Part shown: positions 27,181-52,994 of the stretch, one piece after another
Position numbering within the stretch: position 1 is the stretch's first letter
How the letters are laid out: every line of letters begins with the position of its first letter
Assembly (NCBI GenBank): GCA_013215275.1
Contig: JABSRF010000004.1
Span: forward strand, 1 to 52,994
DNA from: Oligoflexales bacterium
Lineage (GTDB): Bacteria; Bdellovibrionota_B; Oligoflexia; Oligoflexales; Bog-1112
Direction of reading: 5' to 3'
Length of the DNA stretch: 52,994 bases
Notes under the pieces: generated by a model
Database searches by the model: none
The model's input: the letters and a program-made list of their open reading frames with translations, nothing else
Told to the model about the DNA's origin: nothing
Program-made: the position numbers and the translations under genes

Positions 27181-27510
27181 TTAGAATAATAGGGTTTTCA
27201 GCTTTTCTCTGACCTCTGCTAAGACTTCATCAGGAACACTGCCTGTTATTACTGCATTCCTAGCTGATATATCTAAGCATTTAATTTGGTCAGTTAATAC
27301 TACACCCGTAATTTTTCGGTTCCTTGGTAGTTCAACCTCAAATGGATACCCCTTTTTCTTCGAGGTAACGGGACACATTATTGCAAGTTTGGTTATCTTA
27401 GTATAAGAGGATGGAGAAAGAACTAATGCAGGTCGTCGGCCTGCTTGCTCGTGACCTGCCTGTGGATTAAAGTCAACATAGATCAAATCACCGGCATTTG
27501 GATATTGCAC
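27181..27510 (-). CDS. mazF: MazF/PemK-family toxin
   Basis: MQYPNAGDLIYVDFNPQAGHEQAGRRPALVLSPSSYT...CPVTSKKKGYPFEVELP...GVVLTDQIKCLD. Confidence 0.95.
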   Translation of the reverse strand: MQYPNAGDLIYVDFNPQAGHEQAGRRPALVLSPSSYTKITKLAIMCPVTSKKKGYPFEVELPRNRKITGVVLTDQIKCLDISARNAVITGSVPDEVLAEVREKLKTLLF

Positions 27511-27752
27511 TACCAGACCTCATTTCCTTGTGGGTTTTCTTCATTTAGCCACTCTTCATCATTGTGCATATTTTCTGGAGTTATCTTTGCTAATAGCTGT
27601 TCAAGCCCTTGCTTGGGTTTGATTACAATAGCCCCATCAATAACTTCCAAGGTTACTTCACTATTTTCTTTTAGGTTTACTTCTTCGAGTACATTCTTGG
27701 GAACACGTAGCCCTAAGCTATTGCCCCAAGTTTTGAGTGTTGCCGTTGTCAT
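27510..27752 (-). CDS. mazE: MazE/PemI-family antitoxin
   Basis: MTTATLKTWGNSLGLRVPKNVLEEVNLKENSEVTLEVIDGAIVIKP; ATG at 27752 preceded by AGGAGG. Confidence 0.92.
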   Translation of the reverse strand: MTTATLKTWGNSLGLRVPKNVLEEVNLKENSEVTLEVIDGAIVIKPKQGLEQLLAKITPENMHNDEEWLNEENPQGNEVW

Positions 27753-27765
27753 ATAATACCTCCTG

Positions 27766-27783
27766 ACTATGTTTATACATAGT
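27766..27783. promoter_or_regulatory. Probable mazEF operator dyad
   Basis: ACTATG-TTTATA-CATAGT, directly upstream of the mazE RBS. Confidence 0.55.
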
Positions 27784-27817
27784 ATATACATACTAACGGC
27801 ATTTCAAGCGGTTTACT

Positions 27818-28829: not shown

Positions 28830-29049
28830 CGCTAACTCCCCAACTTCTGGTTACTTCCACTTGGCGGGTCAGTAACTCAACACCATCTTCTGATATCGTT
28901 ACTTCATACTTGCCTTCTAATTCGCTTTGCATATCAACATTTTCAATCATGATAGCCTCATCAACTGCCTCATCTGGGCTTTCGGCGTCGATGTCTCCTA
29001 CGTACTCTGAACCTCTTTCATTTCTTATTTGATATTCGTATCTATACAT
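28819..29049 (-). CDS. Hypothetical protein
   Basis: 76-aa ORF, overlaps its neighbour. Confidence 0.5.
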   Translation of the reverse strand: MYRYEYQIRNERGSEYVGDIDAESPDEAVDEAIMIENVDMQSELEGKYEVTISEDGVELLTRQVEVTRSWGVSVVG

Positions 29050-29501
29050 TATTTATTTATCCTCAAAACATTTGCGACTAGTTCACCCCTGAAGGACTGA
29101 ACAATCTCCGACAATTCAGACTGAATAAAGCTAAGCTGCTGCGTCCACGAAAGTCTTGTTTCTTTATCCATTGAGCACCAATCAGCATAGGCGTTGCCAA
29201 TCACAAAACTGAGAATCTTGGTAACACTGATTGGATTTTTTGTTTTAACTGCAGCTATTAACGCCAAATCATACTCTTGCTTCTCAAGTTCATCTTCTAT
29301 TACAAGATCTTTCCTGAGTTTTTCAGCGAATTTATATGAACAATAAGGTTCCACAACTCCCATTTCCATCTTTGTATGATAATAGGGGTCATAGCCAAAT
29401 TTTTCACAGAATTCTTTGCGTGAATAACCAAGCTTCAGCCGTTTTTCTTTAACATACCTTCCAAACACATCGGGAAAGCCTCTGTTTTCTGTACTCTTCA
29501 T
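29049..29501 (-). CDS. XRE-like HTH protein
   Basis: FGRYVKEKRLKLGYSRKEFCEKFGYDPYYHTKMEMGVVEP; start at 29501 with AAGGAG. Confidence 0.65.
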   Translation of the reverse strand: MKSTENRGFPDVFGRYVKEKRLKLGYSRKEFCEKFGYDPYYHTKMEMGVVEPYCSYKFAEKLRKDLVIEDELEKQEYDLALIAAVKTKNPISVTKILSFVIGNAYADWCSMDKETRLSWTQQLSFIQSELSEIVQSFRGELVANVLRINK

Positions 29502-29512
29502 AAATCCTCTCC

Positions 29513-29620
29513 TTAACCAACGCACCTAGCGATCATCATCAGCACCATTCCGATGAGTATTCCAAGGCAAAAGAAAGCAATGATTGTTTGTTTAATAAAT
29601 TCCCATAGGCTGTTACCCAT
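29513..29620 (-). CDS. Micro-ORF: 35-aa transmembrane peptide
   Basis: MGNSLWEFIKQTIIAFFCLGILIGMVLMMIARCVG; GGGAGG a few nt upstream of ATG; overlaps the ruvC-like 3' end by 8 nt. Confidence 0.6.
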   Translation of the reverse strand: MGNSLWEFIKQTIIAFFCLGILIGMVLMMIARCVG

Positions 29621-34826: not shown

Positions 34827-37586
34827 TTAGCTAGATATGGGGATTAGTTTGAGGCATTCAGCTTCAATTGTGCGGAATTTGCCATCGAGGACAATGACTT
34901 TCAGGTTGGGGTTGGACTTTAATTGCTTGCTGATACCAACGATAGCATCACGCTCAATCTTATCTTTGTGCTGGAAAATGTTATTTATAACTTCAACTTG
35001 AGTACCTGCAGGGAACACATCGGTGCCATATTGAGCTTCATCCTTAAGCGACCAAACTTTTGGCGGCTCACATTCTTCACGGTTTAAGATTAAATCAACT
35101 GGAATATACACGCTCTTGTCCAGTATTCCTGAGATCCTAATGGATTGCCGCTTTAAGGCCCCTTTGAGTCTTCCAAGGGAGTGATTCCAGTTTTTCCAAT
35201 GGGATTTTTCAAAAATTTTTGCAAGCTCCACATGCTTGCTGAATACAGCTAGGTACTCCTTCCCTTCTTTTTGATGGACCTTCATACCATACTTCTCCAG
35301 CTCCTTTTTGTGTGGTCCTTGCAGGATATTGACAATTGTATCCTCAAGGTGGCTAACTTGATCGCCAAAATCGCGTGTGTACCTTATCTTAGTGGTTAAT
35401 AGATGGTTTAAACATAATTCTTCATCCCGCTCAGTCTTGGAGAGATCCTTATCTGTAAGGCATTTCATCATCAAACATAGGTTTCTGGCAGCATCTTCCG
35501 TTGGAGGTTGATCCGATGTAAGACTAAAGTAGCTAGCTAATAACATTCCGGTTTGGTCTGCATAGCGTGAGGTATGCCCCATCTGTAAGATAACTTTCTT
35601 AAAGACTCTGTATCCCTCATTAATATTGTCAATTTGCTGGATAGCTCTTGCAAAAAGCCTAAGACCAAACTCGGGAGTGATTTTTTCGCAGGCAGCTAAA
35701 AGGTTAGCTTCATGAATTGGATCTGAGTTGTGACGTGCAAGTTCAAGTATGGAAAAGCGGCCCTTATCCTGAGCGCTTTTGAGGTGAACCTTGATCGAGC
35801 ATACTAAAGCAGTGACTTGGGGATCATAGTTTAATGCTGTACCACTTGTGGTTCCTTTATACATACGGGCGCTTGTAGGGCTCCATGATTGCCTCAGAAA
35901 CTCTATAATGCCTTGCTGGATATAGTTGTTAGATTCCGTCTCAAATTCATCGTATATGACCGGCAAAGAGTCACCTTGTAGGGTTTGCCTGATACCAGCA
36001 GCAGTGGTATCTTGTCCTGCTTTCATGAACCCATCTTCACCACCTAATGCGGGGGTCAATACATCGTTAAACAAAAGCGATTTTCCACACCCCTCACTGG
36101 CTGTAACCCATAGCCTGGGTCTTATAGGTAGCGCTCCTGATACTCTTGCAGTTGCAACCCATCCTAAGAACAAGGGGATTGAGTCGTAACACTCCCAAGA
36201 AAAGTGTTTGATAGCCATGATGAGAAGCTTGCATTCCTCCACTGTTAACGGTGTTGGTGGCTCTGGAAACGAAAACTGTGAAGCTGTGTAGGTGTAAGTT
36301 GAGTGGATGTCTGACATATCCTTCATGGTCCCATCCACTATGAGTTTTGAGCCTGTGTTCACTACCGTTGCTTTTTTATCCTTCCAGACACCAACACCTC
36401 TGACTTTGTGGGGTGAAAAGATCCCAGCATCCATAGACTCAGAAATGATCTGTGCTTTTGCTTGGTCCCAATAGACGCCACCGTCTGGTTTAGGGAACAT
36501 GACTTCTAGCTCATCAAGGGGAAAGGGTATTAATTCACATACGTTGCTGTTACTTACAGAGCGAGTTTTTTGTATTGTGTGATTCTTATAGCTATAGAAA
36601 TAATGGTAAGGACCATTTTGCCCAAGAGCCCTGTATGTGATTTTCTCGCCATCTTCTAAGCAAAGCTGGTCCTTTACCTCATCGAGCCCTTCTCTAACAT
36701 GAAGGTCGTTAAAATCGGTGGTAGCTTTTCCATCGTATTCCATAAATACGGGAAAAACCGGCTTGTTCATAAAGAGCTTAGATGCTTTTATAGCCTCGGT
36801 TTTGCCTGGGTTTCCTTCTGTAGCATGGTCATCATCACCAGCGACAACGAAGTTGACCTTGGGATACTCTTTCTTAAGAAGCTTTGAGACTTCCACAAGG
36901 TTATGTTTGGTGAAGGTCGCAACCACCACATTGCCTGTAGCTAGTCTAAGGCTTGCGCCCGTAGCCCATCCTTCGCAAATATAAACAACCTTTGATGGGT
37001 TAGTTAAATGACCGAATGTGTATATGCTACCAGTAAGCACAGTACCTAGGATCTGGTACTTACCGCCATCGGCAGAGATCCTTTGGCCACCCATGATTGA
37101 GCCTTTTATGGATCGGAACGGGATAAATAGCTTGTCACCGTCCATACAAAGGTCGAACGGCTCGATTAACTTTCGCTTTAAATAAGGATGGTCAGCGTTA
37201 GCCTTAGTCCCACGATCCAAGATCTTTTTAGCAGTCATCCTTGCTTCTTCGTTCAGCTTTTTCTTAGATTCATCGGCAACTTTCTTCGCTTTTTTCTGAG
37301 CGAACTTAATGTCTTCTTTCTCATTCCGGGAAAGCTTAACCTCTGGAGTAAAGGTATACTTTTCTTCATCACTGCTAGCCCAATCACCGAAGGTAACACA
37401 AAGGTATAACAAGCCTTTGGAGGTGGTTAGGTAGCTACCAATATACCAAGCTGAATTTCTGGACAAACCCTCACAACGTCTCAATTTTCCGTCCAAAATT
37501 GGATCATAGATGCTTACATCCCTAGAGGCTGCAAAGCGGATAAACTCTTCACGGAGGTCGTATTCGGTTCTCATATCTTCGCTCAT
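34827..37586 (-). CDS. Toprim primase/ATPase (DUF927-like) replication protein
   Basis: Toprim-like VVYICEGWATGASLRLATGNVVVATF...FVVAGDDDH; Walker A VTASEGCGKSLLFNDV with IYDEFE. Confidence 0.85.
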   Translation of the reverse strand: MSEDMRTEYDLREEFIRFAASRDVSIYDPILDGKLRRCEGLSRNSAWYIGSYLTTSKGLLYLCVTFGDWASSDEEKYTFTPEVKLSRNEKEDIKFAQKKAKKVADESKKKLNEEARMTAKKILDRGTKANADHPYLKRKLIEPFDLCMDGDKLFIPFRSIKGSIMGGQRISADGGKYQILGTVLTGSIYTFGHLTNPSKVVYICEGWATGASLRLATGNVVVATFTKHNLVEVSKLLKKEYPKVNFVVAGDDDHATEGNPGKTEAIKASKLFMNKPVFPVFMEYDGKATTDFNDLHVREGLDEVKDQLCLEDGEKITYRALGQNGPYHYFYSYKNHTIQKTRSVSNSNVCELIPFPLDELEVMFPKPDGGVYWDQAKAQIISESMDAGIFSPHKVRGVGVWKDKKATVVNTGSKLIVDGTMKDMSDIHSTYTYTASQFSFPEPPTPLTVEECKLLIMAIKHFSWECYDSIPLFLGWVATARVSGALPIRPRLWVTASEGCGKSLLFNDVLTPALGGEDGFMKAGQDTTAAGIRQTLQGDSLPVIYDEFETESNNYIQQGIIEFLRQSWSPTSARMYKGTTSGTALNYDPQVTALVCSIKVHLKSAQDKGRFSILELARHNSDPIHEANLLAACEKITPEFGLRLFARAIQQIDNINEGYRVFKKVILQMGHTSRYADQTGMLLASYFSLTSDQPPTEDAARNLCLMMKCLTDKDLSKTERDEELCLNHLLTTKIRYTRDFGDQVSHLEDTIVNILQGPHKKELEKYGMKVHQKEGKEYLAVFSKHVELAKIFEKSHWKNWNHSLGRLKGALKRQSIRISGILDKSVYIPVDLILNREECEPPKVWSLKDEAQYGTDVFPAGTQVEVINNIFQHKDKIERDAIVGISKQLKSNPNLKVIVLDGKFRTIEAECLKLIPISS

Positions 37587-39094
37587 AGTGGACTTACCTC
37601 CGGTGCATAAATCTCATAAATATTGGATAGGTTTTTGTACGGGCAATAACGCTTGGCAATGGACTTGCCATACTCTTCTTCAAGTTTCCTAAAGACGAAT
37701 CCGGTTTTATAGTTTCTCATTTTGCCGATCTTAGCCCATTTGCGGCATGATGCTAGAACGAGATTGGAATTAATTTCCATCATCTCGGACTCTTCTTTTT
37801 CCTCTTCAGGATCATCCTTTGGTGGAACTGGGTCTGGCTCGGGGAATTCATGACCACAGCCAGGACAAGTGCGATCTCTAGACATACGGAAACAGAGGTT
37901 GCAGGAGGGGCATTCGGTCAAACCAAACTCATCATCCTTTTCCTCTTTAGGGGTGGGTTCGAAGTAAGCCTCTGGTGCGTCTTCCACCAGACCGTGTTCT
38001 TTAAGGCATTGAGCGAAGTCTAACACCTTGCAGTGCTTCTTTTCGTAGCCATCTTTAGAATATGGTCTAGTCCCTCGGCCAACCATTTGATGAAATAAAA
38101 TCAATGATTTAGTAGGCCTACAGAGTAAAATCATTTCAATTGCTGGACGATCGAGGCCGGTGGTGCAGGTATCCACATTAAAGACAACTCGGAGCTCACC
38201 GCTCATAAGGCGGTCGAGGATTTTGTTTCGCTCCTTCATGGACTTGGTGTGATCGATGTAATCTGCAGGGATGTCATTATCGGTGAAAAATGCTGCCATA
38301 GCTTTGGCATGAGCTATAGAAACACAAAAAGCCAGAGCGGGCTTGCCTTCATCATGTTTGTGAAAGTCTTCTAGTATCTCACTAAAAATTTCCTTCTTAT
38401 TTATGGCAAGCTCAACATCCTCGGCAACATAGTCATCACTTTTTTTATCCACCCTCAGCTTTGAGGTATCAATCTTAACCAGCACATAATAGCGAGGATG
38501 GATAAGGAAGCCCAACTGGGCTAGTTGGTCAAACTTGATAGGCCATTCGACGCGATCAAAAACATCATCAAAGCCCCTCTTTAAATAAGGGGTAGCTGTG
38601 AAACCGGCTTTTGGGCAGTCATAGCTATTGTATAGCTCGACGCAATTGTCGCTCATGATCCGATGGATTTCATCCATGATAATGAGATCAGCTTTAGGCT
38701 TATGCTTGCGTCTAACAAGGGTATCTATGGAGCATAATTGGACCTTAGCCTTACGATTTGTCAGCTTATGCTTCGCCTGGATGACTCCAAATTTAATATC
38801 AAACCTTTGCAAGTGCTCCGCAAATTGCTCGATTAGTTGGATACCGTGGATGACAATCATCACACGAAGGCCAAGAACCTCAGCAACAAACTTAACAAGG
38901 TAAGCCATAATGATGGACTTGCCTCCGCCCGTAGCGAGGTGAATAAGGGTGGAGTTCCATTGCCTCAAGAAATTTAGGATGAGCTCCGTTTGGTAAGGTC
39001 GAGGCTTAGCAAAAGGTAGCTCAATAGCTCTGAGTTTATCCCGATTGGGATCTTGCCTAACTAGCTGCATTAATATCCTCCCATCCCAGAGCAA
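37583..39094 (-). CDS. DEAD/DEAH-box helicase (SF2)
   Basis: IHLATGGGKSIIMAYL, IIMDEIHRI, GFTATPYLKRGF, QMVGRGTRP; C-terminal CPSC...CPGC zinc ribbon. Confidence 0.95.
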   Translation of the reverse strand: MLWDGRILMQLVRQDPNRDKLRAIELPFAKPRPYQTELILNFLRQWNSTLIHLATGGGKSIIMAYLVKFVAEVLGLRVMIVIHGIQLIEQFAEHLQRFDIKFGVIQAKHKLTNRKAKVQLCSIDTLVRRKHKPKADLIIMDEIHRIMSDNCVELYNSYDCPKAGFTATPYLKRGFDDVFDRVEWPIKFDQLAQLGFLIHPRYYVLVKIDTSKLRVDKKSDDYVAEDVELAINKKEIFSEILEDFHKHDEGKPALAFCVSIAHAKAMAAFFTDNDIPADYIDHTKSMKERNKILDRLMSGELRVVFNVDTCTTGLDRPAIEMILLCRPTKSLILFHQMVGRGTRPYSKDGYEKKHCKVLDFAQCLKEHGLVEDAPEAYFEPTPKEEKDDEFGLTECPSCNLCFRMSRDRTCPGCGHEFPEPDPVPPKDDPEEEKEESEMMEINSNLVLASCRKWAKIGKMRNYKTGFVFRKLEEEYGKSIAKRYCPYKNLSNIYEIYAPEVSPL

Positions 39095-39332
39095 CCAATG
39101 TGCTAATTATTTTTTTCCTGGTTTTAGGTTGAGGGTTCGCTACTAAAGGAAGATCTTTGCGAGTTGAGGCAGGAATCCCAGCTTTTTTACATACCGTATT
39201 GGCATCTTTGCCAACCTGACTTGCTGCAACCTGGAGTTGTTCCCAAAAAGTTACATTTGAAAGCATAAAAGCAATCCTTTCCGTGTGAGGTTCTGCTAAA
39301 AGTGTGGTCCTGCTTTTTATGTAGCCCTGCAA
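39057..39332 (-). CDS. Small HTH/Cro-like protein
   Basis: VTFWEQLQVAASQVGKDANTVCKKAGIPASTRKDL; likely start at 39263. Confidence 0.5.
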   Translation of the reverse strand: MQGYIKSRTTLLAEPHTERIAFMLSNVTFWEQLQVAASQVGKDANTVCKKAGIPASTRKDLPLVANPQPKTRKKIISTLVALGWEDINAAS

Positions 39333-39420: not shown

Positions 39421-39858
39421 CTAGAGTTTCATTAGTTTTCTAGCGGTACTATCAAGATCCCACCTAATATTCATAGGGCCCTGATGAACCTTTCCTTTAA
39501 CTTCAGTGGTCATGAAGTTTACTTTAGATAGCAACTTCCCATCTTTCGTCGGCTCCCACCCCTTGCTGGATTTAGTCTGCAAGCCATGAGCAGCTAGGAG
39601 CTTATTTACATCCCTTGCAGCAAGACTAGATGTTGAATACCCTTTCTGTTGCAAGGTAATACCCAATTGAGTGGGAGTTCCAAATTCTTCTTCTTTTTTA
39701 TTAGTAGTATCGATATTATGTGATGGTTGTACTGAAACGTCTGTGTGACTTTTTATATATGCCATTGCAAGAGCATCGGCTTTGTCCTCAGAGAACCCTA
39801 CTCTTAAAGCGTCACTCTTGATCCCGATTGCTTGTTGAGCTATTGAGCTAAACTTCAT
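39421..39858 (-). CDS. Putative antirepressor-like/regulatory protein
   Basis: FGTPTQLGITLQQKGYSTSSLAARDVNKLLAAHGLQTKSSKGWEPTKDGKLLSKV resembles phage antirepressor C-terminal domains. Confidence 0.55.
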   Translation of the reverse strand: MKFSSIAQQAIGIKSDALRVGFSEDKADALAMAYIKSHTDVSVQPSHNIDTTNKKEEEFGTPTQLGITLQQKGYSTSSLAARDVNKLLAAHGLQTKSSKGWEPTKDGKLLSKVNFMTTEVKGKVHQGPMNIRWDLDSTARKLMKL

Positions 39859-40044
39859 TTTTTACCCTCTCGTCCTAAGTCGTTAAAAAAATCCTTTAGA
39901 TCTCGATATGGTAAAAAAATGTATGAAATACTTTCTTGCAAAACAAGTCAAAAAATATACATAAAAATGTGTCAAAGCCTTGGTGAGGGTACTATTTGTA
40001 TAAAACACCCAACTTTCATACAGAAAAAATGAGGGCGTTAAAAA

Positions 40045-40518
40045 ATGAACCAGGAATACAAAAAAATTGTACAAAATCAATTGAGACAATTCTTAAGAGC
40101 CTACCGTCATGCTGAAAACATCAGCGCAGAAGATGCAGCTTGCAAACTTGACCTGGAAATAACTAGTTATCGAAAGCTAGAAGGTCTCAAGCCTGAAAAT
40201 AGAGTAATAAGCAGCATCAGCTACCTAGAAAAGATTGCAAAACTAAGGGCTAAATCTCTCGTTGATTTCATCTCTTTCTTAACCCCTCAAGATTTGGTGA
40301 ATGGTTTAGGTAGAGGCTTATACCTATGGGAAAAAAATATTATTTCTGGCTTTGAAAAAATGAGTGTATCTAAGCGGAATAAATTTCTTAACTATCTCAG
40401 CAAGCTAGAGGAAGATGAGCTAGCTGATTTTTATGACCACTTAGTTGAAATGTCTAAAAAGCGATCTTCAAAAATTTCTTTCACAACTCGCATATTAAGG
40501 GAGCTAAAGGATGACTAG
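40045..40518 (+). CDS. XRE-like HTH protein (candidate repressor)
   Basis: LRAYRHAENISAEDAACKLDLEITSYRKLEGLKPENR, divergent from the antirepressor-like gene. Confidence 0.65.
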   Translation: MNQEYKKIVQNQLRQFLRAYRHAENISAEDAACKLDLEITSYRKLEGLKPENRVISSISYLEKIAKLRAKSLVDFISFLTPQDLVNGLGRGLYLWEKNIISGFEKMSVSKRNKFLNYLSKLEEDELADFYDHLVEMSKKRSSKISFTTRILRELKDD

Positions 40519-40873
40519 AGTATTGGTAATCGAAGATGATCCACATTTTGGTGACACTCTTAAAATGAAATTGGAGATGGATGAAGGTGTAAAGGTTGAC
40601 GTTTACAGAGATTTCGAAACGTTCGCGGAAAAAGTCACATCACCACATCAAGTAAAAGAATACTCATGTGCTCTAGTCGACTACCAATTTGGTCGCTACA
40701 ACGCTTATCATAAAGGGTCAGCAATCTATCTACGAGAAGACCTTCAGTTTAAAGGAAAAATTTACCTGTGGACGCTAGAAAAACTTGAAGATGTAAAAGG
40801 AAAAGAGGACTACGACGCAATACTTCCCAAAAAATTCTATTCATTTTCCGCTCTTGAGAGGTTTGACAGTTAA
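40511..40873 (+). CDS. Response-regulator receiver domain protein (divergent)
   Basis: RVLVIEDDPHFGDTLKMKLE...CALVDYQFG...DAILPKKFYS; overlaps the HTH gene by 8 bp. Confidence 0.7.
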   Translation: MTRVLVIEDDPHFGDTLKMKLEMDEGVKVDVYRDFETFAEKVTSPHQVKEYSCALVDYQFGRYNAYHKGSAIYLREDLQFKGKIYLWTLEKLEDVKGKEDYDAILPKKFYSFSALERFDS

Positions 40874-40875
40874 AA

Positions 40876-42678
40876 ATGAAATTCCTGCTTGTGCTCATTT
40901 TTTTGATTTTCTCTACTAGTAGCTTTGGCGTAACAATCACCCAAAAAACGGAGGATTTAAAGCTATCCGATGATCTTAAGATTCATTTAACCTCGGATAA
41001 ATTAGAAATTGAGGATGTTGTAAAACTAAACCCTGGAGAGTTTTCTAAGTACGCGAGTGGTAAGAGCTTAGGGTTCACCCAAAAAGTTCTCTGGGGTAAA
41101 GTGCCAATTAAAAATCGATCAGGTATCGAAGACTGGTTTGTTTCACTTTATGTCAGCCATATCGGGAGTTTCAGACTATATAAAGTGCAAGGCAAAAACA
41201 TAGAACTTGTCGAGCATGTAGGAAGGGATATTGACGCTCGTACTAGAGCTGTTAATCTAAAATATCCTACTATTCCAGTTGCAATTTCTAAAGACTTTGA
41301 TGGGTACTTTTATATACGAGCGGAGTCCGAAAATAACTTGACCATTGACCTTGATTTAAGGCGGATAAATTCTCTAATCACACATATGCATAAGGACGTA
41401 ATTTTCCAAGGAATCTACTATGGCTTTCTTATTGGTCTAATGCTTTATGTTTTGAGTTTATGGATTTTTGCATCCGAGTCACTTTATGGAAGATATGGTC
41501 TCTATCTTTTCGCAATGGCTTTACTACAACTTGCTGTTACCCATGATGGTTCTACCTATTTATGGCCAGGAAAAATTACTTTTGATAAAACTCTTGAGAC
41601 TTTCTCGGGAGGTTTAATTTTCGTCACCATGGGCAACTTTTTAAGAGAGTTTTTTAAGGACTATTTACAAAAAATGCCCTCAGCTATCCCAACTAATGCA
41701 ATCAAAGCTGGTGGAATTGTTTGTCTGATTTCAATACTCTCATCAAATTATGTACTCAACATTGTTGGAACAATAATATTGGTTGCCTGCTTTTTCCCTG
41801 CAGTAACCTGGTTCCTCTTTAAGGCATGGAGATCAGGTATTAAACCAGCACTTTTTATGTGGATCGGCTGGGGTGCAATGTCTCTTGGAATGTACTACCA
41901 GATAGTCATGAAGTCGGGATTTTTTTCTCTTCCATACATATATAATTTCTTCCAAGTTACTTGCATCATTGATTTCATTTTGTTTACCGCATCTATTTCC
42001 CTAAGGATAAGAGACATAAATATAGAATTAGCAGAAAAAAAAAGCTCTTTGCAGCTATCCAAGGGGTTATCAGCTATAAGCGCCGGGATAGCACACGAAG
42101 CTAAAAAACCATTACAGGCCGTTTCCAACGTGCTAGATGAATTATTAGAAATATCTGATACTTCCAACGCCTACCTCAAAAGATTGTTGGATAGTTCTCG
42201 CAATAAACTAAATCATTCTGGAGCTATTTTTGATGATATTCTAAAAATTGGCAAGCCTGACATGAAATTTCAAGAATTGGAGATAAGAAGACTCATTGAG
42301 GATGCTATCAACCTGTCTAAAATTTCGTACACTCCAAAGCTTGAAATAGAAGATTTTTCTTTAAAATGCGACAAAGAAAAAACGATTCGAGCCTTCACCA
42401 TTTTGATCGATAATGCCTTCGAGCATGGTGCCAAAGATGGTGAACCTGTTTTGATTCGAACTTGTGCCAAGAACAAGAAAACTTTAGAGGTAATCAACTA
42501 TGGTGTTTATCTCGAAAAAGATGAAATAAGAACCATTTTTGAACCCTGGGTAACTAAAGGAGGTAATGGCCTAGGTCTTTACCTCTTTAGCTCAATTGTG
42601 AAATCCCATAATTGGGAAAACCGTTGCCATTCGAGTAAAAAGGACAACTTCGTGGCTATGATTTTGACATTCAATTAA
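40876..42678 (+). CDS. Sensor histidine kinase with 7TM-DISM-like input region
   Basis: Signal peptide, extracellular beta domain, multiple TM helices, H-box GIAHEAKKPLQAVSNVLDELLE, N-box LIDNAFEHG, GGNGLGLYLFSSIVKSH. Confidence 0.9.
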   Translation: MKFLLVLIFLIFSTSSFGVTITQKTEDLKLSDDLKIHLTSDKLEIEDVVKLNPGEFSKYASGKSLGFTQKVLWGKVPIKNRSGIEDWFVSLYVSHIGSFRLYKVQGKNIELVEHVGRDIDARTRAVNLKYPTIPVAISKDFDGYFYIRAESENNLTIDLDLRRINSLITHMHKDVIFQGIYYGFLIGLMLYVLSLWIFASESLYGRYGLYLFAMALLQLAVTHDGSTYLWPGKITFDKTLETFSGGLIFVTMGNFLREFFKDYLQKMPSAIPTNAIKAGGIVCLISILSSNYVLNIVGTIILVACFFPAVTWFLFKAWRSGIKPALFMWIGWGAMSLGMYYQIVMKSGFFSLPYIYNFFQVTCIIDFILFTASISLRIRDINIELAEKKSSLQLSKGLSAISAGIAHEAKKPLQAVSNVLDELLEISDTSNAYLKRLLDSSRNKLNHSGAIFDDILKIGKPDMKFQELEIRRLIEDAINLSKISYTPKLEIEDFSLKCDKEKTIRAFTILIDNAFEHGAKDGEPVLIRTCAKNKKTLEVINYGVYLEKDEIRTIFEPWVTKGGNGLGLYLFSSIVKSHNWENRCHSSKKDNFVAMILTFN

Positions 42679-42697
42679 CGATTTTTAGGATATACAG

Positions 42698-43423
42698 ATG
42701 AAAAATAAAACTTTATTTGCTATCTTCTTTACTTTTGTGTTTATTTTCATTGGGGGCTTTTCTTACATGTTTACGGGACGCACATCGACTAATCAAAAGT
42801 TTGTAATTTTAGATTTTGATGGGGTAATTGCCGATTCCTGGCAAATTGCTTTTGAGACTATGAATTCTTATTCTGAGGAGTTTGGTTTTTTGCCAATGTC
42901 ATTCGACGCGGCATCAGACCTAACAACAAAAGAGATATTTAAGGCTTATAATTTGGGTTTTTTCGCTCAGTTTAGGCTAGCTAGTAAAGTAAAGAGTGCT
43001 TTACATGAGAACATGAATAAGATCGATGTTTTCCCAGAATTTTTAGCTATCTGTAAAAGGCTTTCAGAACAGGGTATAGAGGTTGCCATTATAACATCTA
43101 ACTCCAAAGAGAATGTCGATAAGTTTTTTAGTCATAATAAGATTGATTTTATAAAAATAGTTCATAGTACCACATCAATTTTTGGTAAGGATTCCGCGAT
43201 AAAGTCATTTTTAAAAGAGTATGGAGTAAAAAAAGAGAACGCTATTTATGTTGGTGATGAAGTAAGAGACGTCACAGGCGCAAAGAAAGCTGGCATCCCC
43301 GTGATGGCAGTTACTTGGGGGTTCGATCCCCGCGCGAAGCTATTACAAGAGGGGCCAGATTATTTGGTGCATGATTCAAAACACGCGCAAATGATTTTAG
43401 AAAAATACTTTCAACTGAATTAA
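42698..43423 (+). CDS. Membrane-anchored HAD-family hydrolase (phosphoglycolate phosphatase-like)
   Basis: N-terminal TM TLFAIFFTFVFIFIGGFSYMF; VILDFDGVIADSW, IITSNSKENV, YVGDEVRDVTGAKKAGI. Confidence 0.88.
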   Translation: MKNKTLFAIFFTFVFIFIGGFSYMFTGRTSTNQKFVILDFDGVIADSWQIAFETMNSYSEEFGFLPMSFDAASDLTTKEIFKAYNLGFFAQFRLASKVKSALHENMNKIDVFPEFLAICKRLSEQGIEVAIITSNSKENVDKFFSHNKIDFIKIVHSTTSIFGKDSAIKSFLKEYGVKKENAIYVGDEVRDVTGAKKAGIPVMAVTWGFDPRAKLLQEGPDYLVHDSKHAQMILEKYFQLN

Positions 43424-43451
43424 AAATACCGTTTATACTGAGAGGATATTT

Positions 43452-44534
43452 ATGTTTAAAATTTTTATTAAATCGTTCACTGCATTTTTTATTTTCTTCT
43501 GTCTTTATACTTCTGCTGATGCGGTTGAGTTTGAGCAAGCTAATAAGTTCATACAGGAATCAATTGATTCAAGTCATGAATTCGGCATCCAATCTTATGC
43601 ATCAGGTGATATTCTGTTCACTAAGCAAATAGAGCTTTCAAAGCTCAGAAATTTTGTTATCAAAGCTACTGGTAAAGACCTTATCAAGTACGATCTAGGT
43701 CCAGAGTCATTTTCATCTCTGATAGCCCTTCGTGTTTTGCATGATGTAGAGCACAAAGAACTGAATGATAAGCTGATAAAGCTTGGTTATACGCTTGCCA
43801 CGGCTGAATCTTTAGAATTGCCCAACAGAATTCATTTCTTTCACAATAACACCGATTTTGCTGCAGACATTGATGCAACATCAATTACTGCAGTTGCCCT
43901 TTATAAATCAGGTTTGATCTCTGATGATGAACTTATTCAATATGCTAAAGAAGTATTGAAAAGCAGACCAGAGGATGGTGATTATAAAGACCTTCTCCAG
44001 GTTTACTGGGAAGATGGAGCCGAGCCCAACCGAGGAATTAAGTTTGATCCGGTAGTAACGGCTAATGCTCTTTATCTTATCAAAACGGCTCAATCACTGG
44101 GGCTTGGTGTAGACGATCGAGTCATTGAAAAAAATATTAATTTCATAGTGAGCCATCTTCAGAGTGGAGAATACAAAAATGGGACAAGGTATTATCCACT
44201 GCCCGAGATATTTCTATATTTTTCATCACTGCTCTGTGATTTTAAGGAATTTTCAAAAGTCTTAAAACCTATGATTTTTGAAGCTATGTCTAGCTACCTT
44301 ACTTCAGAAGTCAGCCCTTTAGAAGCATCCCTCAGAATTTTAGTAGCTAAACAAGTAGATTTGGACGTTGATCTAAAACCACTTTCCCTGAGCCTACGTT
44401 CTTCTTTAACAAATCAAGGGTGGCAAGCTGGGCCATTTTTTAAGCTTGGTAAGAGTTCCATATTTTTTGGATCAAACACAATTACTTCAATATTTGGCCT
44501 TAAGGCAATTTACCTCTTAGATGAAAGAATTTGA
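43452..44534 (+). CDS. Secreted protein, possible alpha/alpha-toroid (terpenoid-cyclase-like) fold
   Basis: Signal peptide, then DIDATSITAVALYKSGL and FDPVVTANALYLIKTAQSLGL...NINFIVSHLQSGEYKNGTRYYPLPEIFLYFSSLLC. Confidence 0.5.
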   Translation: MFKIFIKSFTAFFIFFCLYTSADAVEFEQANKFIQESIDSSHEFGIQSYASGDILFTKQIELSKLRNFVIKATGKDLIKYDLGPESFSSLIALRVLHDVEHKELNDKLIKLGYTLATAESLELPNRIHFFHNNTDFAADIDATSITAVALYKSGLISDDELIQYAKEVLKSRPEDGDYKDLLQVYWEDGAEPNRGIKFDPVVTANALYLIKTAQSLGLGVDDRVIEKNINFIVSHLQSGEYKNGTRYYPLPEIFLYFSSLLCDFKEFSKVLKPMIFEAMSSYLTSEVSPLEASLRILVAKQVDLDVDLKPLSLSLRSSLTNQGWQAGPFFKLGKSSIFFGSNTITSIFGLKAIYLLDERI

Positions 44535-44535
44535 A

Positions 44536-45357
44536 ATGAGACACATTATAATAATAATTTCATTGTTGTTTTCTTCTGCCTCTTTTGCAGATTATCCGCT
44601 AAGTTTTAACAAAGCAGCCCCTCTACTACCTAAGCCTCATGGGAATGGTTATGCAAGTCATAGTTTTGATGATTCAACTAGTATATATGAAATTTCATCA
44701 ACTCATGCTGGCCCACAAGGAAGAATCTTAGATCTAGCATATCGAAACACAAGATTAAATAACGAAGGCCTAGACAAATTTGGTTTAACTCTTGGAGGAG
44801 TTATTCCTAATTCAAACGACGATTTGATAGCTTTTAAATCAATTATAGGTTTTGTTCATAGTAGAGGCTACTACGATCATACAGGGGAAATATTGGCAAC
44901 CTGGGTTAAAAATATAGGATCATATGACATTATTATACTAGGTGGCGGTTACAAATTCGTCTCAACTAAATTCAGTGATGCCTACCCTCTTATCGGTTAT
45001 AGAAGATATGTCAAAGGTAGATATAGTTTTGAAGCCATCCTTCCATCTCATGTTAAAGCAAGTCACGATCTCAATGACACCTTAGAAATTGGAGTTTTTT
45101 CTAATTTAGGTAGTGAACTAGTCTGTGTTGGTGAAAAAGAGATCTCGGACGGTGAATTACCCGATTCGGTTCTGGGCAAGTACCAAACTGTCAGAGTTGG
45201 TATTGAGTCAACTATTAAAGTTGCTGAAAACATAGAGTTTACTGCTAAATTTGGTCAATCCCTAGCTAGAAAGATAACTAAGGACGACAATAAGGTATCA
45301 AAGCTGGATGGTAATCAGAATTTCGCAGAAGTGGCTTTGAACGTATCTAAGTTTTAA
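44536..45357 (+). CDS. Secreted/outer-membrane beta-barrel-like protein
   Basis: MRHIIIIISLLFSSASFA signal peptide then beta-rich sequence ending FAEVALNVSKF. Confidence 0.6.
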   Translation: MRHIIIIISLLFSSASFADYPLSFNKAAPLLPKPHGNGYASHSFDDSTSIYEISSTHAGPQGRILDLAYRNTRLNNEGLDKFGLTLGGVIPNSNDDLIAFKSIIGFVHSRGYYDHTGEILATWVKNIGSYDIIILGGGYKFVSTKFSDAYPLIGYRRYVKGRYSFEAILPSHVKASHDLNDTLEIGVFSNLGSELVCVGEKEISDGELPDSVLGKYQTVRVGIESTIKVAENIEFTAKFGQSLARKITKDDNKVSKLDGNQNFAEVALNVSKF

Positions 45358-46045: not shown

Positions 46046-46408
46046 TTAAATATGCTTCTTGACCACTTTCAAAAAATTTTCACTCGTAAACGGTTTCAAG
46101 ATAATCTCTAAAACATTAGTTCCATCTATTGCATCCCGCTTATCAGGGGGAACACCAGTGATTAAAATTAGCTTTGGAGTAATATTTTTTTCATTGAGAA
46201 TATTGAGGAACTTATACCCATCGATATAAGGCATTACAAGATCTAATATTACAAGGTCTGGCTTGTGAAGAAGAAGCAAAGACATTCCATCTTTTCCGTT
46301 ATCCGCAGACATTACGTCATATTCATTTTCCAATAATCCATTCAAAAAATTTAGCATTAATTTGTCGTCATCTATAACTAAAACTGATTTTTTCATACCG
46401 ACTCGCAA
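46046..46408 (-). CDS. CheY-like single-domain response regulator
   Basis: SVLVIDDDKLMLNFL...DLVILDLVMPYIDG...LILITGVP...EIILKPFTSENFLKVV. Confidence 0.93.
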   Translation of the reverse strand: MRVGMKKSVLVIDDDKLMLNFLNGLLENEYDVMSADNGKDGMSLLLLHKPDLVILDLVMPYIDGYKFLNILNEKNITPKLILITGVPPDKRDAIDGTNVLEIILKPFTSENFLKVVKKHI

Positions 46409-47218: not shown

Positions 47219-48577
47219 TTAATCTGGAAAAGCATGTTTCCTTGGGGTTGTATTCCAGAAAGACAAAGCCCCCACCCCTCTTTTCATAGTCTCTTTTGCA
47301 AGCAACATGACAAGAGCTACGGCACTGAGCCTATAGAGAGCTTTTAAAACAAGGTGCATCCAATTTGTCTGGTATCTTTCCCCGAGCTCCGATTCAACCG
47401 CTGCTAACTTTGCACCTGCCTCATCCAAACTTTTCTTGGCTGGATCAAGGTGCTTAATCTTGTACCAGTTGTTGTGATAAACGTCAGAATTTTTATCTTC
47501 GTAACGAGCCTTCCTTTGCTCGTAATCGACCTTGGCAATATCGTAGGCTTCCGAAGCTGAGAAATGGATAGGATTTGCTCTCAGAGCCTCAGAAGCTAAA
47601 TCCCGCTGATTTGCTTGTGAGCCTGCCCATACGATAAGCACCTCGTAAGCAATTATTAACGCCGCGAATAATTTAGCCGAGCTCGACTTTGAAATCACGC
47701 TTAACGCCGAAAAGCCGATTGCCAGGCCGATTGCGCCGTAAGATGCTAACTCAGGGTTTGGGAACTTAAGTGATTGGTAGAGTGGTAGTGTTTGCTCCAC
47801 AACAAAGCAGCAAGCCAAGTATGCACAGTAGCCCAGGGCAAGGGCTGCTGGGAAGTTAGTTATAAATGCACCACCGTCTAACTGGGAGAGCTTTTGAAAA
47901 ATTCCTGTTAAAAAATCAGACTTACCTACAGTTACATTATCATCAACAGCGTCATTACTGCAAACCTTGGCTTGATTTCCTGCCGTATCCTTTGCTAGAT
48001 TATCGCCGTTAGCATTCGCGATCTCGCTAACGCTAGCCTGCTGCTCCAAGATCTTGGGTGCTGGAGCGGTGGGCTTAATACTTTCCCTTAAATCAACAAG
48101 ACAATCTCTTATCTCTAAAAGCAATTCGGCTTGATTTTGAATATTGTGGTTTTCGTTTACCTGATTGATACTTTCTTTGGAAGTATCCACAGACATTGGT
48201 TGCTCCAGGCAGTGGCTTTGGCTACTGCCGTTTGACTCATCACTTGCCACAGCGCCTGGGTTTGGTAAGCTTGGACTGTCGGATCTACTTAGCGTTTTTT
48301 CGATGGTCTGCTGCTCAGCTTTCGACGGTAGGGCAGCAGATTCGAACATAGAACTAACATTCCCAAACTGACTTTCTTTCTTCAATTGTCTTCTCCTCTT
48401 CTTTTGAGAATTGATACGATCCTTGTTTTGAGGATTGCTGCGATATGCACGATGATACTTCGCTTTTTTGGTTTGAGATTGCCCAGATAAATCAGGGGCA
48501 AATAGTCCACTCGCTTCCTCATCCCCATTGAATAGTCCTCCTTGTGCCATTGTCATTCGACTCCAGCCTCCAAACAT
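47219..48577 (-). CDS. Hypothetical protein with central TM helices
   Basis: Long polar N-terminus, hydrophobic FPAALALGYCAYLACCFV and AIGLAIGFSALSVI; overlaps the primase gene. Confidence 0.6.
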   Translation of the reverse strand: MFGGWSRMTMAQGGLFNGDEEASGLFAPDLSGQSQTKKAKYHRAYRSNPQNKDRINSQKKRRRQLKKESQFGNVSSMFESAALPSKAEQQTIEKTLSRSDSPSLPNPGAVASDESNGSSQSHCLEQPMSVDTSKESINQVNENHNIQNQAELLLEIRDCLVDLRESIKPTAPAPKILEQQASVSEIANANGDNLAKDTAGNQAKVCSNDAVDDNVTVGKSDFLTGIFQKLSQLDGGAFITNFPAALALGYCAYLACCFVVEQTLPLYQSLKFPNPELASYGAIGLAIGFSALSVISKSSSAKLFAALIIAYEVLIVWAGSQANQRDLASEALRANPIHFSASEAYDIAKVDYEQRKARYEDKNSDVYHNNWYKIKHLDPAKKSLDEAGAKLAAVESELGERYQTNWMHLVLKALYRLSAVALVMLLAKETMKRGVGALSFWNTTPRKHAFPD

Positions 48578-50868
48578 GAAGTGAAAAATCTGTATGAATA
48601 ATTGCGCCTTCTAGCACAATACTTTGCGACTGCTTCTAGCTGCTCCCAAGGCCATGAATCCATCAGCCTCAAGAAACCAAATATGGATTTGGTATTGATT
48701 ATCCCTTGGCCCTTCTCGATTTGTGCCAATATCAACTGGTCAAATGCAGGTCCAACCTTTTGCGCCTTACGCCTGTAGGTAGAATTTAAGGACTTTGCTT
48801 TGTGCCACTGAGAGTTTGTGCCACCTTCAGTTTTTGTGCCTCTGCCCTTGAGTAGCTTGTACCCTCGGATGAATTGTGCCTTCTCGAAAAATTCTATGTT
48901 TGTGCCATCATCAACCACCTGGAGTTTGCGCCCAATCCATGAGTCTCCGAGCCAATAGAAGTTGTCCTGATAGTTTACGTAACCATCACAGCGGACTTTC
49001 TTCTCTACCATGTCTGGGAATTTAAATGAGCTGAGATTCTCATGTGTTGTCTGGACTTTACCTGAGCAATTACTGTGAGCACACTCAACTTCCGATCCAG
49101 TCATTAATTCCTGGTCAAAGGAATCATTTTGTACATTAGGGGAGGCTTTTTCTCTCCCCAATTCCCTCACTAAACCTAGCATCCAGTTTATATTTTTAAG
49201 GTTCTCTTCAACTAATCTTGATAAATTAGGATTGTCAGCAAGTGACATATGCTTTTGGAGATCCAGGGCACGGTCCCTGAACTCCTTAATTACACGCTTG
49301 TCATCTTTGCTACGCTCCTCAAACTCAAGCTCGAAACCATGATACTTAGCAAACTTATCCACCACAGGATTACCCTGGAGCATTGACCGGCCCTTAACAA
49401 TCAACTTGCTTGGCTTTTCATCAAGAACCTTCAAAACCTCCTGTATTGCTGCAAGCTGCAGTTTGTACCCAGTGCCTTTTACAGACTGACTTGCGATAAT
49501 CTGAGTAGATGCATTTCCTGTCTCCAAAACTAACAGGCTCTTCTCATTACCCCTGCGCGTAAATGCCAGGGAGTAGTGGGGCTTTCGAGACCCCCCCAGG
49601 GGGCCTTCTGTAATATTTTTCGCTTCGCTATTTTCCCTTAAAGCCAATGGAATTTCTTGGCCAGCTCTGATTCCAAAAAGCTGTGGCTGGTTCCTATATA
49701 TAGAGGCAACAATTTTTGCTATAGACCTGCAGCTTCTTGAATCTTCATGGCCAGGGATCAGCCTAGAGTGAGCGTTTAGGCCTATCATAGTCTGGTGCTT
49801 CGAGTAGCCATGCCACTTGTAATAAATCGCGGCACTGGATAGCCAGGCATTGCGCTCTCCATCAAGCACTTCTTCTGGAAGCTTTAGATCCTTGAGGAAG
49901 GTCGATGCATACTCGGGATTCTCGATTAGCTTTAGGGCTCGCTCGATATCCCCATACTCTGGATTGATCCATAGCTCATAGCCCTCAGTACGTCCGAGGT
50001 AATTGACATTGAGCCATTTAGGTCGTGACTGGGGGCGCTTTACTAGAATATTGCGAAGGGTATCTTTAGATATTTCTGTCAGCTTAACCAGCTCACCCAT
50101 GGTGTAGCACTTAGTCTGGCCGAGGTTTTCGAACAGCTCCACGTACAAATGAGCCAAGCGAGCTTCGGTGGTCTTGTGTGGGTGAAGAATCTCATCCTGA
50201 TCTCTTTTAGCTGGTGGTCTGCATTCTTTTAGCTTGTTCGTAATAGCTAGGATCTCAGTGATTACATTGCGGCCTTCTCTTTTGATGAATGCATGAACAT
50301 CTTTGTCATAATAAAGCTGCCGCGCTTTGCTAAACTGCGAAACCTCATGGCGTCTAAAGTTGGGTAAGTCTCTAACAATACCGAGGGCTGACATATCAGC
50401 GCCTAGCCCATGGTGTTTCAACAATCTGACTAATGCTTCCTGTGCTTGTTGGGCAAGAAAAATGGTCTTGTGTGAACCATCAGTGAAGTCGCGCACGATG
50501 GGACTGATCGCAATTCCAAGGTGAATTCCTTTGCCACCTGTGCTACGAACGACGAACTGCGTATATATGAAGATCTCTGGATACTTCTTTTGGAGAAAGG
50601 TTAAGACCTTCTCCCAGTTTATTTCACCCTTCCTATCGAGCCATTTAAACTTGGTGTCTTTAACATCGATGTCTAAAGGAATACAGAACGGGACTCTAGT
50701 GCCATCAGGGTTCAACCAAGCCGAGCTAATATAGTCTGACTTAAAATGACGCCAGCCAGTGTATTCGCGGCTTATTATTTTAGATCCGTCTTCCTCTAAC
50801 CGTAGGATCTTTTTAAAGGCATGGTAGCCGCCGGTGTAGCCTTCTTTTGCAAGCGCTGCTAATTGCAT
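48553..50868 (-). CDS. AEP-superfamily primase/plasmid replication protein
   Basis: VPFCIPLDIDVKDTK (DxD-like), FVVRSTGGKGIHLGIAISP (sxH-like), DMSALGIVRDLPNFRRHE. Confidence 0.75.
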   Translation of the reverse strand: MQLAALAKEGYTGGYHAFKKILRLEEDGSKIISREYTGWRHFKSDYISSAWLNPDGTRVPFCIPLDIDVKDTKFKWLDRKGEINWEKVLTFLQKKYPEIFIYTQFVVRSTGGKGIHLGIAISPIVRDFTDGSHKTIFLAQQAQEALVRLLKHHGLGADMSALGIVRDLPNFRRHEVSQFSKARQLYYDKDVHAFIKREGRNVITEILAITNKLKECRPPAKRDQDEILHPHKTTEARLAHLYVELFENLGQTKCYTMGELVKLTEISKDTLRNILVKRPQSRPKWLNVNYLGRTEGYELWINPEYGDIERALKLIENPEYASTFLKDLKLPEEVLDGERNAWLSSAAIYYKWHGYSKHQTMIGLNAHSRLIPGHEDSRSCRSIAKIVASIYRNQPQLFGIRAGQEIPLALRENSEAKNITEGPLGGSRKPHYSLAFTRRGNEKSLLVLETGNASTQIIASQSVKGTGYKLQLAAIQEVLKVLDEKPSKLIVKGRSMLQGNPVVDKFAKYHGFELEFEERSKDDKRVIKEFRDRALDLQKHMSLADNPNLSRLVEENLKNINWMLGLVRELGREKASPNVQNDSFDQELMTGSEVECAHSNCSGKVQTTHENLSSFKFPDMVEKKVRCDGYVNYQDNFYWLGDSWIGRKLQVVDDGTNIEFFEKAQFIRGYKLLKGRGTKTEGGTNSQWHKAKSLNSTYRRKAQKVGPAFDQLILAQIEKGQGIINTKSIFGFLRLMDSWPWEQLEAVAKYCARRRNYSYRFFTSCLEAGVE
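48720..48906 (-). repeat. Five exact GGCACAAA motifs (TTTGTGCC on + strand) inside the primase gene
   Basis: At 48720, 48799, 48815, 48833, 48899; near-match at 48873. Confidence 0.85.
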
Positions 50869-50999: not shown

Positions 51000-51893
51000 T
51001 CAGGTCTTTGTATCTGATGATTCAAATTTCACTAATTTAAGCTCGCTCAAAACGCTTGATATAAAGGAAATTTGGTCTTCATTAAACTTCTTGTTATTGC
51101 AATATTCATAAAACTTTTCAGTCCTTAAGGGGAATTTATTTTTCCGAACATCTTTTTTTTCTGTCGGGCTGCCCGACACATTAACTAGAGCCAATAATGC
51201 TTCAATAACTTCGGAGTCAGTCATTTTCTTTTTTGCTATATGACCAAGCTTTCGAATGTTTATATCATGCTCCTTAATTAATTGTTTTGCATCATTTGGC
51301 CATTTTGCAATTTTCAAAAGCTCGACGACATACCCTCGATGCTTATTCAATATTCGCGCAACACCTGTTGTCGTTTCATTCAACCTTTCCTTTAGGTTGA
51401 GAACTGACTCAGCAAGTTCTAGTGGCTTTAAGTTTTGCCTTACCAAATTTTCAGCTAAACGAGCCAAATGAATATCTTGCTCGTTTTCTGAATATATCAG
51501 CTCAGCAGGACAGGTTTCATAACCTAGTTCTTTTAGAGCCATTATTCTTCTGTGACCAGCTACACATAAAAAAGGTTTTGAAGTGGATAGACCCAACGTT
51601 AAAACAGGGCGCTGTAAAAGCCCCTGTTCCTTTATCGATTCTCTCAAACCAACAAAATCTGCCGTAGAAGTATCAATCTCTCGACTGTTTTGAGATAAAT
51701 CAATCTCGTCAATTCTTACACTAGGTAGAGAACCTTTCCCTTTTTGCTGAACCTTTTTAAAAACTTCTTTTACAGAAAGATACCATTCAGCTTGCGCATC
51801 CACTTTTTTATGATCTTTAAACTCTTTTTCTACCCCTTTTACAGTTGATGCAATTTTACTAGCTAATTTAGACTTTGCTTTGCTTTTTTTCAT
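51000..51893 (-). CDS. parB: ParB-family partition protein
   Basis: IDLSQNSREIDTSTADFVGLRESIKEQGLLQRPVL...CVAGHRRIMALKELG..TCPAEL...RLAENLVRQNLKPLE. Confidence 0.95.
   Translation of the reverse strand: MKKSKAKSKLASKIASTVKGVEKEFKDHKKVDAQAEWYLSVKEVFKKVQQKGKGSLPSVRIDEIDLSQNSREIDTSTADFVGLRESIKEQGLLQRPVLTLGLSTSKPFLCVAGHRRIMALKELGYETCPAELIYSENEQDIHLARLAENLVRQNLKPLELAESVLNLKERLNETTTGVARILNKHRGYVVELLKIAKWPNDAKQLIKEHDINIRKLGHIAKKKMTDSEVIEALLALVNVSGSPTEKKDVRKNKFPLRTEKFYEYCNNKKFNEDQISFISSVLSELKLVKFESSDTKT
51161..51178. promoter_or_regulatory. Putative parS-like palindrome inside parB
   Basis: CTGTCGGGCTGCCCGACA, identical to 93-110. Confidence 0.55.
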
Positions 51894-52828
51894 AACCCAT
51901 GCATCTCCTCTTCAAGAACTAATGAGGGAACAGGCATTTTTTCTAAAGATGGTGTATCTCCGAGTTCTTTCCTAAATCTTTTCAAGGTATCCTTGTCCAA
52001 AGCTGGAGTATTTGGAGATCTTCCTCTTCTATTCAACTTAAGCTCTGGAAGAATAAGTTTGGCAAGCCTTGTATATGCTTCACTTATAGGGAGCTTCGAT
52101 TGCCCGTGTACAATTGGATTTTCCATCGCACAAGATGTTGGTACTGCCTTAGAAAAGGGTACGGTTCCTAATAAAGGCATACCGACCTGCTTTCCTAACT
52201 TTTCAATTGCTTCCAAAAACATTCTATGGACTGTTATTGACTTATCGTACTTGGTCACGAAGCAACCTAAAACATGGAGCGTTGGGTTTAGCTTGTCTTT
52301 TATCATTTTCACATTTTTGAACATAACGCGAAGTGCATCAAGACTATCCGCTTCAGCAAAGAGTGGAAGAACATAGTAGTCTGCAGCAACCATTACATTT
52401 GTAAAAGTTAAATCTAAGGAAGGGTGGGTATCGATCACGATAATATCAAACTCTTCCCTTGCCTTTATCAACCAGTCTCTCATAATCCCATGAGAACCGG
52501 GCTGAGCTAGAAAAGAGTTATTAAATTCACTAAAATCTTGATCAGCTCCAACAGCGTAAACATTGTCGAACTTGGTTTTCAACCAGATCGACTCTGCTGC
52601 TTTCTGCTCGAAAAACGCTACGGAGATTGTTTTCTCAAGATCTATAGCCTGTTGCTTTATTCCAATCTGAGCGCTTGAATTCCCTTGATAGTCAGCATCA
52701 ACAAGCAGGACTTTCAAACCAAGATTAGCAAACGCACAACAAAGATTTGTACTAGAAACAGATTTTCCAACACCACCCTTTTGATTAGCCAAGGCAAGAG
52801 TAACGCCTTTAATTTTTTTAGATCTCTT
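51890..52828 (-). CDS. parA: ParA-family partition ATPase
   Basis: VTLALANQKGGVGKSVSSTNLCCAFANLGLKVLLVDADYQGNSS...IIVIDTHPSLDLT; start at 52828 with AAGGA upstream. Confidence 0.97.
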   Translation of the reverse strand, partial: KRSKKIKGVTLALANQKGGVGKSVSSTNLCCAFANLGLKVLLVDADYQGNSSAQIGIKQQAIDLEKTISVAFFEQKAAESIWLKTKFDNVYAVGADQDFSEFNNSFLAQPGSHGIMRDWLIKAREEFDIIVIDTHPSLDLTFTNVMVAADYYVLPLFAEADSLDALRVMFKNVKMIKDKLNPTLHVLGCFVTKYDKSITVHRMFLEAIEKLGKQVGMPLLGTVPFSKAVPTSCAMENPIVHGQSKLPISEAYTRLAKLILPELKLNRRGRSPNTPALDKDTLKRFRKELGDTPSLEKMPVPSLVLEEEMHGL

Positions 52829-52994
52829 CATAATTCGATTCCTTAACGGCTTGGCATGCAAGCATCAATTAACTATTATCGTATTACTTAAATCATATTT
52901 GGTAAAGTCGATTATATAATTAATCCTTGATAAACAAAGTCAGCTAAAACCCTCAAAATAAATTTCAACCATCTAACTTACTATAATTACCTAA

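Follow-up and report, generated by a model that had tools for sequence, protein, structure and literature searches.

Two-component control of mobile element transfer, phage-borne histidine kinases and signal-driven lysis decisions are already known. In Bacteroides, the element-borne two-component system RteA/RteB controls the excision and transfer of CTnDOT itself (PMC1976400). Phage phiCDHM1 has an agr locus whose AgrC histidine kinase is proposed to sense an outside signal (PMC3901668), no phage response regulator being reported. Lysis and lysogeny are tied to outside signals by VqmA/Qtip in VP882 and by AimR in arbitrium, and arbitrium-like systems are found in phages and conjugative elements (PMC7790227). 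Rco of plasmid pLS20 represses the conjugation promoter from a divergent gene (PMC9986798), and RetS and LadS are 7TMR-DISM kinases of Pseudomonas (PMC7695008, PMC5992135). In a literature search of partial coverage we found no phage with a kinase, a receiver and a regulator in a single operon.

The locus described here combines features of these systems. As in CTnDOT, the two-component system is carried by a mobile element; RteB works through RteC, whereas the present receiver (REC) lacks an output domain, its gene being paired with that of a helix-turn-helix (HTH) protein, and one copy of the set is on a phage. The kinase operon includes both REC and the HTH gene, which sets it apart from phiCDHM1. 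The element reads as a phage-plasmid, and VP882 too is a plasmid-like prophage; the well-studied signal-driven circuits (arbitrium, VqmA/Qtip) rely on cytoplasmic receptors, whereas the locus encodes a membrane kinase with predicted phosphotransfer.

The window (the whole stretch of DNA analysed, 52,994 bp) is the complete contig C334 of a single metagenome bin (4.55 Mb, 710 contigs). It is best read as a phage-plasmid, because myophage genes (portal, capsid/protease, terminase, sheath, tape measure and baseplate) occur together with plasmid partition and replication genes, namely ParB and ParA (51000..52861, - strand) and a replication-type protein (48553..50868, - strand) with an 82% identical counterpart on C97, another contig of the bin, which carries the same ParA/ParB/Rep genes. 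No transfer genes were recognised by eye among the ORFs of the window. The contig ends (1-8 and 52987-52994) share only 8 nt, TTACCTAA, which is perhaps a trimmed circular junction and perhaps chance; no terminal repeat of at least 15 nt was found at the ends. A second stand-alone receiver, this one canonical (46046-46408; also L130:1449-1829), is flanked by two copies of a short-repeat protein in the vicinity of ParA/ParB/Rep, and the plasmid-type contig C97 has the same set.

Three genes on the + strand form the operon: an HTH regulator (40045..40518, 157 aa), REC (40511..40873, 120 aa) and a membrane sensor kinase, HK (40876..42678). The frames, the 8-bp overlap of HTH and REC and the 2-bp gap between REC and HK match the initial annotation exactly. 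The receiver gene was described there as divergent, a term that holds only for its sequence, since HTH, REC and HK share the + strand. REC scores under the cut-off of Pfam Response_reg (E=0.0074). Its predicted fold (AlphaFold2, mean pLDDT 92.6) is matched by Foldseek to the receivers of PhoB, CpxR and ArlR (TM ~0.7), and D9, D57 and K107 are invariant across seven relatives. The receiver fold, the acidic pocket, the phospho-acceptor Asp and the Lys are all present, and, judged by sequence and model together, REC is a genuine receiver despite its sub-threshold Pfam score.

HK has a signal peptide followed by 7TMR-DISMED2 (PF07696, 4.5e-11), the seven-helix 7TMR-DISM_7TM (PF07695, 1.9e-22) and HATPase_c (PF02518, 1.1e-9), all above the Pfam cut-off, while its HisKA match is sub-threshold. 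The kinase core residues are in place (H407 in IAHEAKKPL, N513 and a GGNGLGL box), and the protein thus has the DISMED domain, the 7TM DISM part and the kinase core of 7TMR-DISM sensor histidine kinases. RetS and LadS likewise join a DISMED2 and 7TM sensor to a kinase core; they are chromosomal global regulators, and LadS-type records are only ~20% identical to HK. HK and REC are taken as a two-component pair by operon linkage.

The HTH protein has an N-terminal XRE-like HTH and a helical C-terminal part. Its Pfam assignment is weak (HTH_31, E=0.02, sub-threshold), about 40 matches to the family were found among the genomes of the class, and its predicted model is poor (pLDDT 59.7) and was left out of the fold search for low confidence. 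The best PDB profile match of the family is Rco of pLS20, a weak one (E=0.0078) limited to the N-terminal part; it fits the reading of a divergent repressor and proves nothing. The protein is a candidate repressor of the immunity or transfer type, its tentative assignment as an XRE/CI-type immunity repressor relying on the weak HTH match and on its position facing a divergent region. Rco is likewise an HTH repressor encoded divergently from an operon, that for conjugation. The antagonist of Rco is a peptide-responsive Rap protein, whereas the HTH protein of the window is paired with a receiver.

The triad as an inert passenger, left over when a plasmid-prophage recombined with a conjugative element or produced by misassembly of the two, would be consistent with the origin of the window in a single metagenome bin and with the failure to find a related phage that has the triad. 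We regard this as very improbable. The frames of HTH, REC and HK are all intact and the catalytic residues conserved, and the triad is internal to the contig, flanked by early genes of the phage on one side and by plasmid genes on the other, in a window where inspection by eye recognised no transfer gene.

The initial annotation held that its reading would fall if the three genes were unlinked elsewhere; this objection fails, as HTH-REC pairs and HTH/REC/HK sets do recur in related genomes. A profile search with the REC subfamily in 63 genomes of the class gave ten strong matches (E<1e-20), the window included, with E from 2e-55 to 2e-22; all ten belong to the window's own family and comprise the window phage and nine contigs with transfer genes or the HTH-REC core. 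HTH and REC genes are neighbours on the same strand in six other loci (G000:C143, G004:C33, G006:C103, G008:C70, G008:C389 and G006:C17), with an overlap or a spacing of 1-2 bp in five of them; in G006:C17 the REC gene is cut by the contig end. A kinase gene lies further along the operon in all four HTH-REC loci whose contig continues. After REC, the operons of G004, G006 and G008:C70 encode a periplasmic-type protein, a kinase and an alpha/beta hydrolase, and that of G008:C389 an AMP-ligase and then a 7TMR-DISM HK. Other arrangements are HAD-7TMR-DISM HK-REC (G007:C9, with an HTH gene and a TraU operon ~6 kb away), HAD-periplasmic protein-HK-REC (G002:C28), REC-periplasmic protein-HK (G008:C104 and G008:C324) and a HAD-7TMR-DISM HK pair with no visible receiver (G008:C502).

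The sensor part of the module is exchangeable, being a 7TMR-DISM kinase in four loci and a periplasmic protein with an HK in six, and the nearest HTH-REC relatives have a sensor type unlike that of the window. A receiver is missing from the neighbourhood of many HTH homologues; receivers beside HTH homologues are more frequent than chance would give (rough binomial p below 1e-3, an order-of-magnitude estimate with the receiver density taken roughly from candidate counts). Some operons also include an AMP-ligase (L049:5280-6812), an alpha/beta hydrolase (L058:7610-8344) or an acetyltransferase (in L057), enzymes that might make or destroy a signal.

TraU was identified by Pfam in G006:C103 and G007:C9, and evident TraU homologues are present in G000:C143 and G008:C70. 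MobF/TrwC relaxases adjoin the module in G008:C104 and G008:C324, with a weak match in a cut gene of G002:C28, and the TraF-like matches of G008:C389 are weak. G004:C33 is called conjugative by operon kinship, because its contig ends just upstream. Each of the nine contigs with a strong REC match is either a conjugative element (TraU, MobF relaxase) or resembles one through the kinship of its operon. The HTH gene is divergent from a transfer operon in G000:C143, G006:C103, G008:C70, G007:C9, G008:C324 (where an HTH homologue faces a transfer-like operon ~28 kb away), G002:C43 and others, whereas that of the window is divergent from a helicase/primase operon and not from transfer genes. As with RteAB of CTnDOT, a two-component system stands on a mobile element beside its transfer or replication genes. 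The presence of the same gene set beside conjugative transfer genes suggests that a single device for sensing "when to leave" is common to different mobile elements.

The linkage had been put forward as a phage feature, and this part of the claim is not supported: the relatives found are conjugative elements and no phage relative was found. Queries with HK, HTH and REC detected no direct homologues in IMG/VR, and the outcome was the same for GenBank phages (HTH and REC) and for plasmids (HTH). A LadS-like match (20.5%) in Pseudomonas phage Y3 (OQ572405.1) was set aside because the record is marked UNVERIFIED and carries no annotation. This 24-kb record (L139) does hold a LadS-like kinase, possibly as host contamination.

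HTH and REC are inherited together. Their pairwise identities correlate with r=0.98 (15 locus pairs, which are not independent), and in maximum-likelihood trees the phage copy groups with the same four loci (support 100/99 for HTH and 91/89 for REC), on branches that are long in both trees. In other genera, a hybrid HK with a C-terminal REC lies directly upstream of an HTH homologue (G061:C464, G049:C3, G049:C5 and G057:C4), and the hybrid RECs of the first three are among the next-best matches of the REC profile. This co-inheritance and the hybrid HK-REC loci are the best evidence that REC and the HTH protein would work together. The proposal made at the outset, of a receiver that may act on the HTH protein, gains from the strict pairing, the matching trees and the hybrid kinases upstream of HTH genes; the contact itself we infer. 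At L060, L064, L070, L053 and L050, also from other genera, an HTH homologue follows a hybrid HK-REC gene, and the family could extend to a broader class of output proteins for phosphorelays.

Alternatively, HK and REC could feed host phosphorelays, with the HTH gene an unrelated phage repressor that lies beside them by chance. There are models for such a course: the 7TMR-DISM kinases RetS and LadS signal through other kinases in Pseudomonas. AgrC of phiCDHM1, which has no phage response regulator, is proposed to act via the host (PMC3901668). The partner of the kinase might also be the other receiver (46046-46408), or regulators of the host. Since HTH and REC have been inherited jointly and adjoin each other in six further loci, we think a chance association improbable, and prefer the reading in which the three genes belong to one switch.

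The position of the operon points to a control function. In support of the initial annotation, the HTH/REC/7TMR-DISM-HK operon of this temperate-type element faces its early operon for replication, which encodes, on the - strand, a DNA primase/helicase (34827..37586) and a DNA helicase (37583..39094). A small Cro-like HTH candidate, recognised by eye (39057..39263, - strand, the ORF extending to 39332 from an upstream TTG), has no library match; it occupies the position of a small HTH-like gene in the related phage G004:C39. The 145-aa protein next to the divergent region (39421..39858, - strand) had been called antirepressor-like, a label we could not support because searches of Pfam, PHROGs and NCBIfam gave no match. 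Phage G004:C39 has portal, capsid and terminase genes in common with the window and, opposite its small HTH-like gene and primase, a different HTH-type protein of 267 aa; the HTH-REC-HK triad is absent from this position. The position is thus a control region in a relative, since an HTH-type regulator stands there opposite the HTH-like gene and the primase. Another HTH-like protein of the window (29049-29525) could be the repressor instead.

The divergent intergenic region (39859..40044) has an exact 9-nt inverted pair, TGTATGAAA (39920-39928) and TTTCATACA (40014-40022), as predicted control sites. No common operator motif was found across the loci, which do not share TTTCATACA with the window. 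A promoter/terminator scan gave no excess over shuffled sequences. One candidate operator, TTCATATAGATTT, common to three conjugative loci, was rejected: its TTG(C/A)(C/A)A box, 16 nt before TATAGA, reads as a promoter, and the nearest counterpart in the window has three mismatches, no better than in shuffles.

Downstream of HK, on the + strand, are a HAD-family phosphatase (42698..43423), a secreted-type protein of unassigned family (43452..44534) and a DUF6268-like outer-membrane-type protein (44521..45357), the latter two being probable cargo. Homologues of the HAD gene adjoin HK in the G007, G002 and G008 elements, and HAD phosphatases with a GDExRD motif lie beside a kinase gene at L062:3388-4005, L166:1753-2367, L169:1519-2202 and in the window. 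The six genes from 40045 to 45357 are on one strand, opposite to most phage genes, and their GC content is 36% against about 42-45% in the remaining phage. Strand, base composition and the recurrent HAD-HK neighbourhood would suit a cargo (moron) operon, in which HTH-REC-HK controls itself and the HAD, secreted and outer-membrane genes and alters the lysogen envelope, with no role in the lytic switch. We find this doubtful: outside the window the module does not include the gene at 43452, whose product had no homologue in the 62 other genomes of the class, the HTH gene is repeatedly opposite transfer or replication operons, and the related phage has an HTH-type regulator at the same position.

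We favour, on balance, the view that an envelope-sensing switch cassette, mainly of conjugative elements, serves this phage-plasmid as a switch regulator. With its DISMED2/7TM part the membrane kinase would sense a cue from the periplasm or envelope, and it would set the phosphorylation of the stand-alone REC, which, having no output domain, would most likely act by contacting the product of the adjacent upstream HTH gene. Repression of the divergent operon (tra genes in the conjugative elements, helicase/primase in the phage) is the probable role of this HTH protein, and a change in the state of REC would relieve or tighten this repression, the level of which would decide whether the element remains a plasmid or replicates and leaves. 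The genomes show the linkage; DNA binding, the direction of the response, the ligand and the control of lysis versus lysogeny are, like the contact, inferred. More tentatively, and with less than an even chance in our estimate, interchangeable cassettes (an HTH and REC core, a swappable sensor and sometimes a HAD protein) would circulate between conjugative elements and phages of this lineage, phosphorylated REC acting in the phage as an antirepressor on the immunity repressor, with a membrane signal inducing independently of DNA damage. If true, a membrane kinase, common to the phage and to conjugative elements of the same hosts, would act through a stand-alone REC on a phage regulator, unrelated mobile elements would exchange a common decision device, and it could be asked which envelope signal mobile elements listen to. 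For uncultured Oligoflexales-type genomes, the prediction is that wherever the REC subfamily is found a mobile element is close by.

Other features of the window and of a related prophage were also recorded. The terminase large subunit (22425-25529) has a large insertion after about residue 90, ending in HNTT, which matches intein-bearing phage proteins and is a probable intein, and 27181-27791 encodes, by eye, a probable MazEF-type toxin-antitoxin pair. A related prophage from another family (L135:191-5302 in G015:C1) encodes, between its portal and terminase genes, a methyl-accepting chemotaxis protein as well as three receivers.
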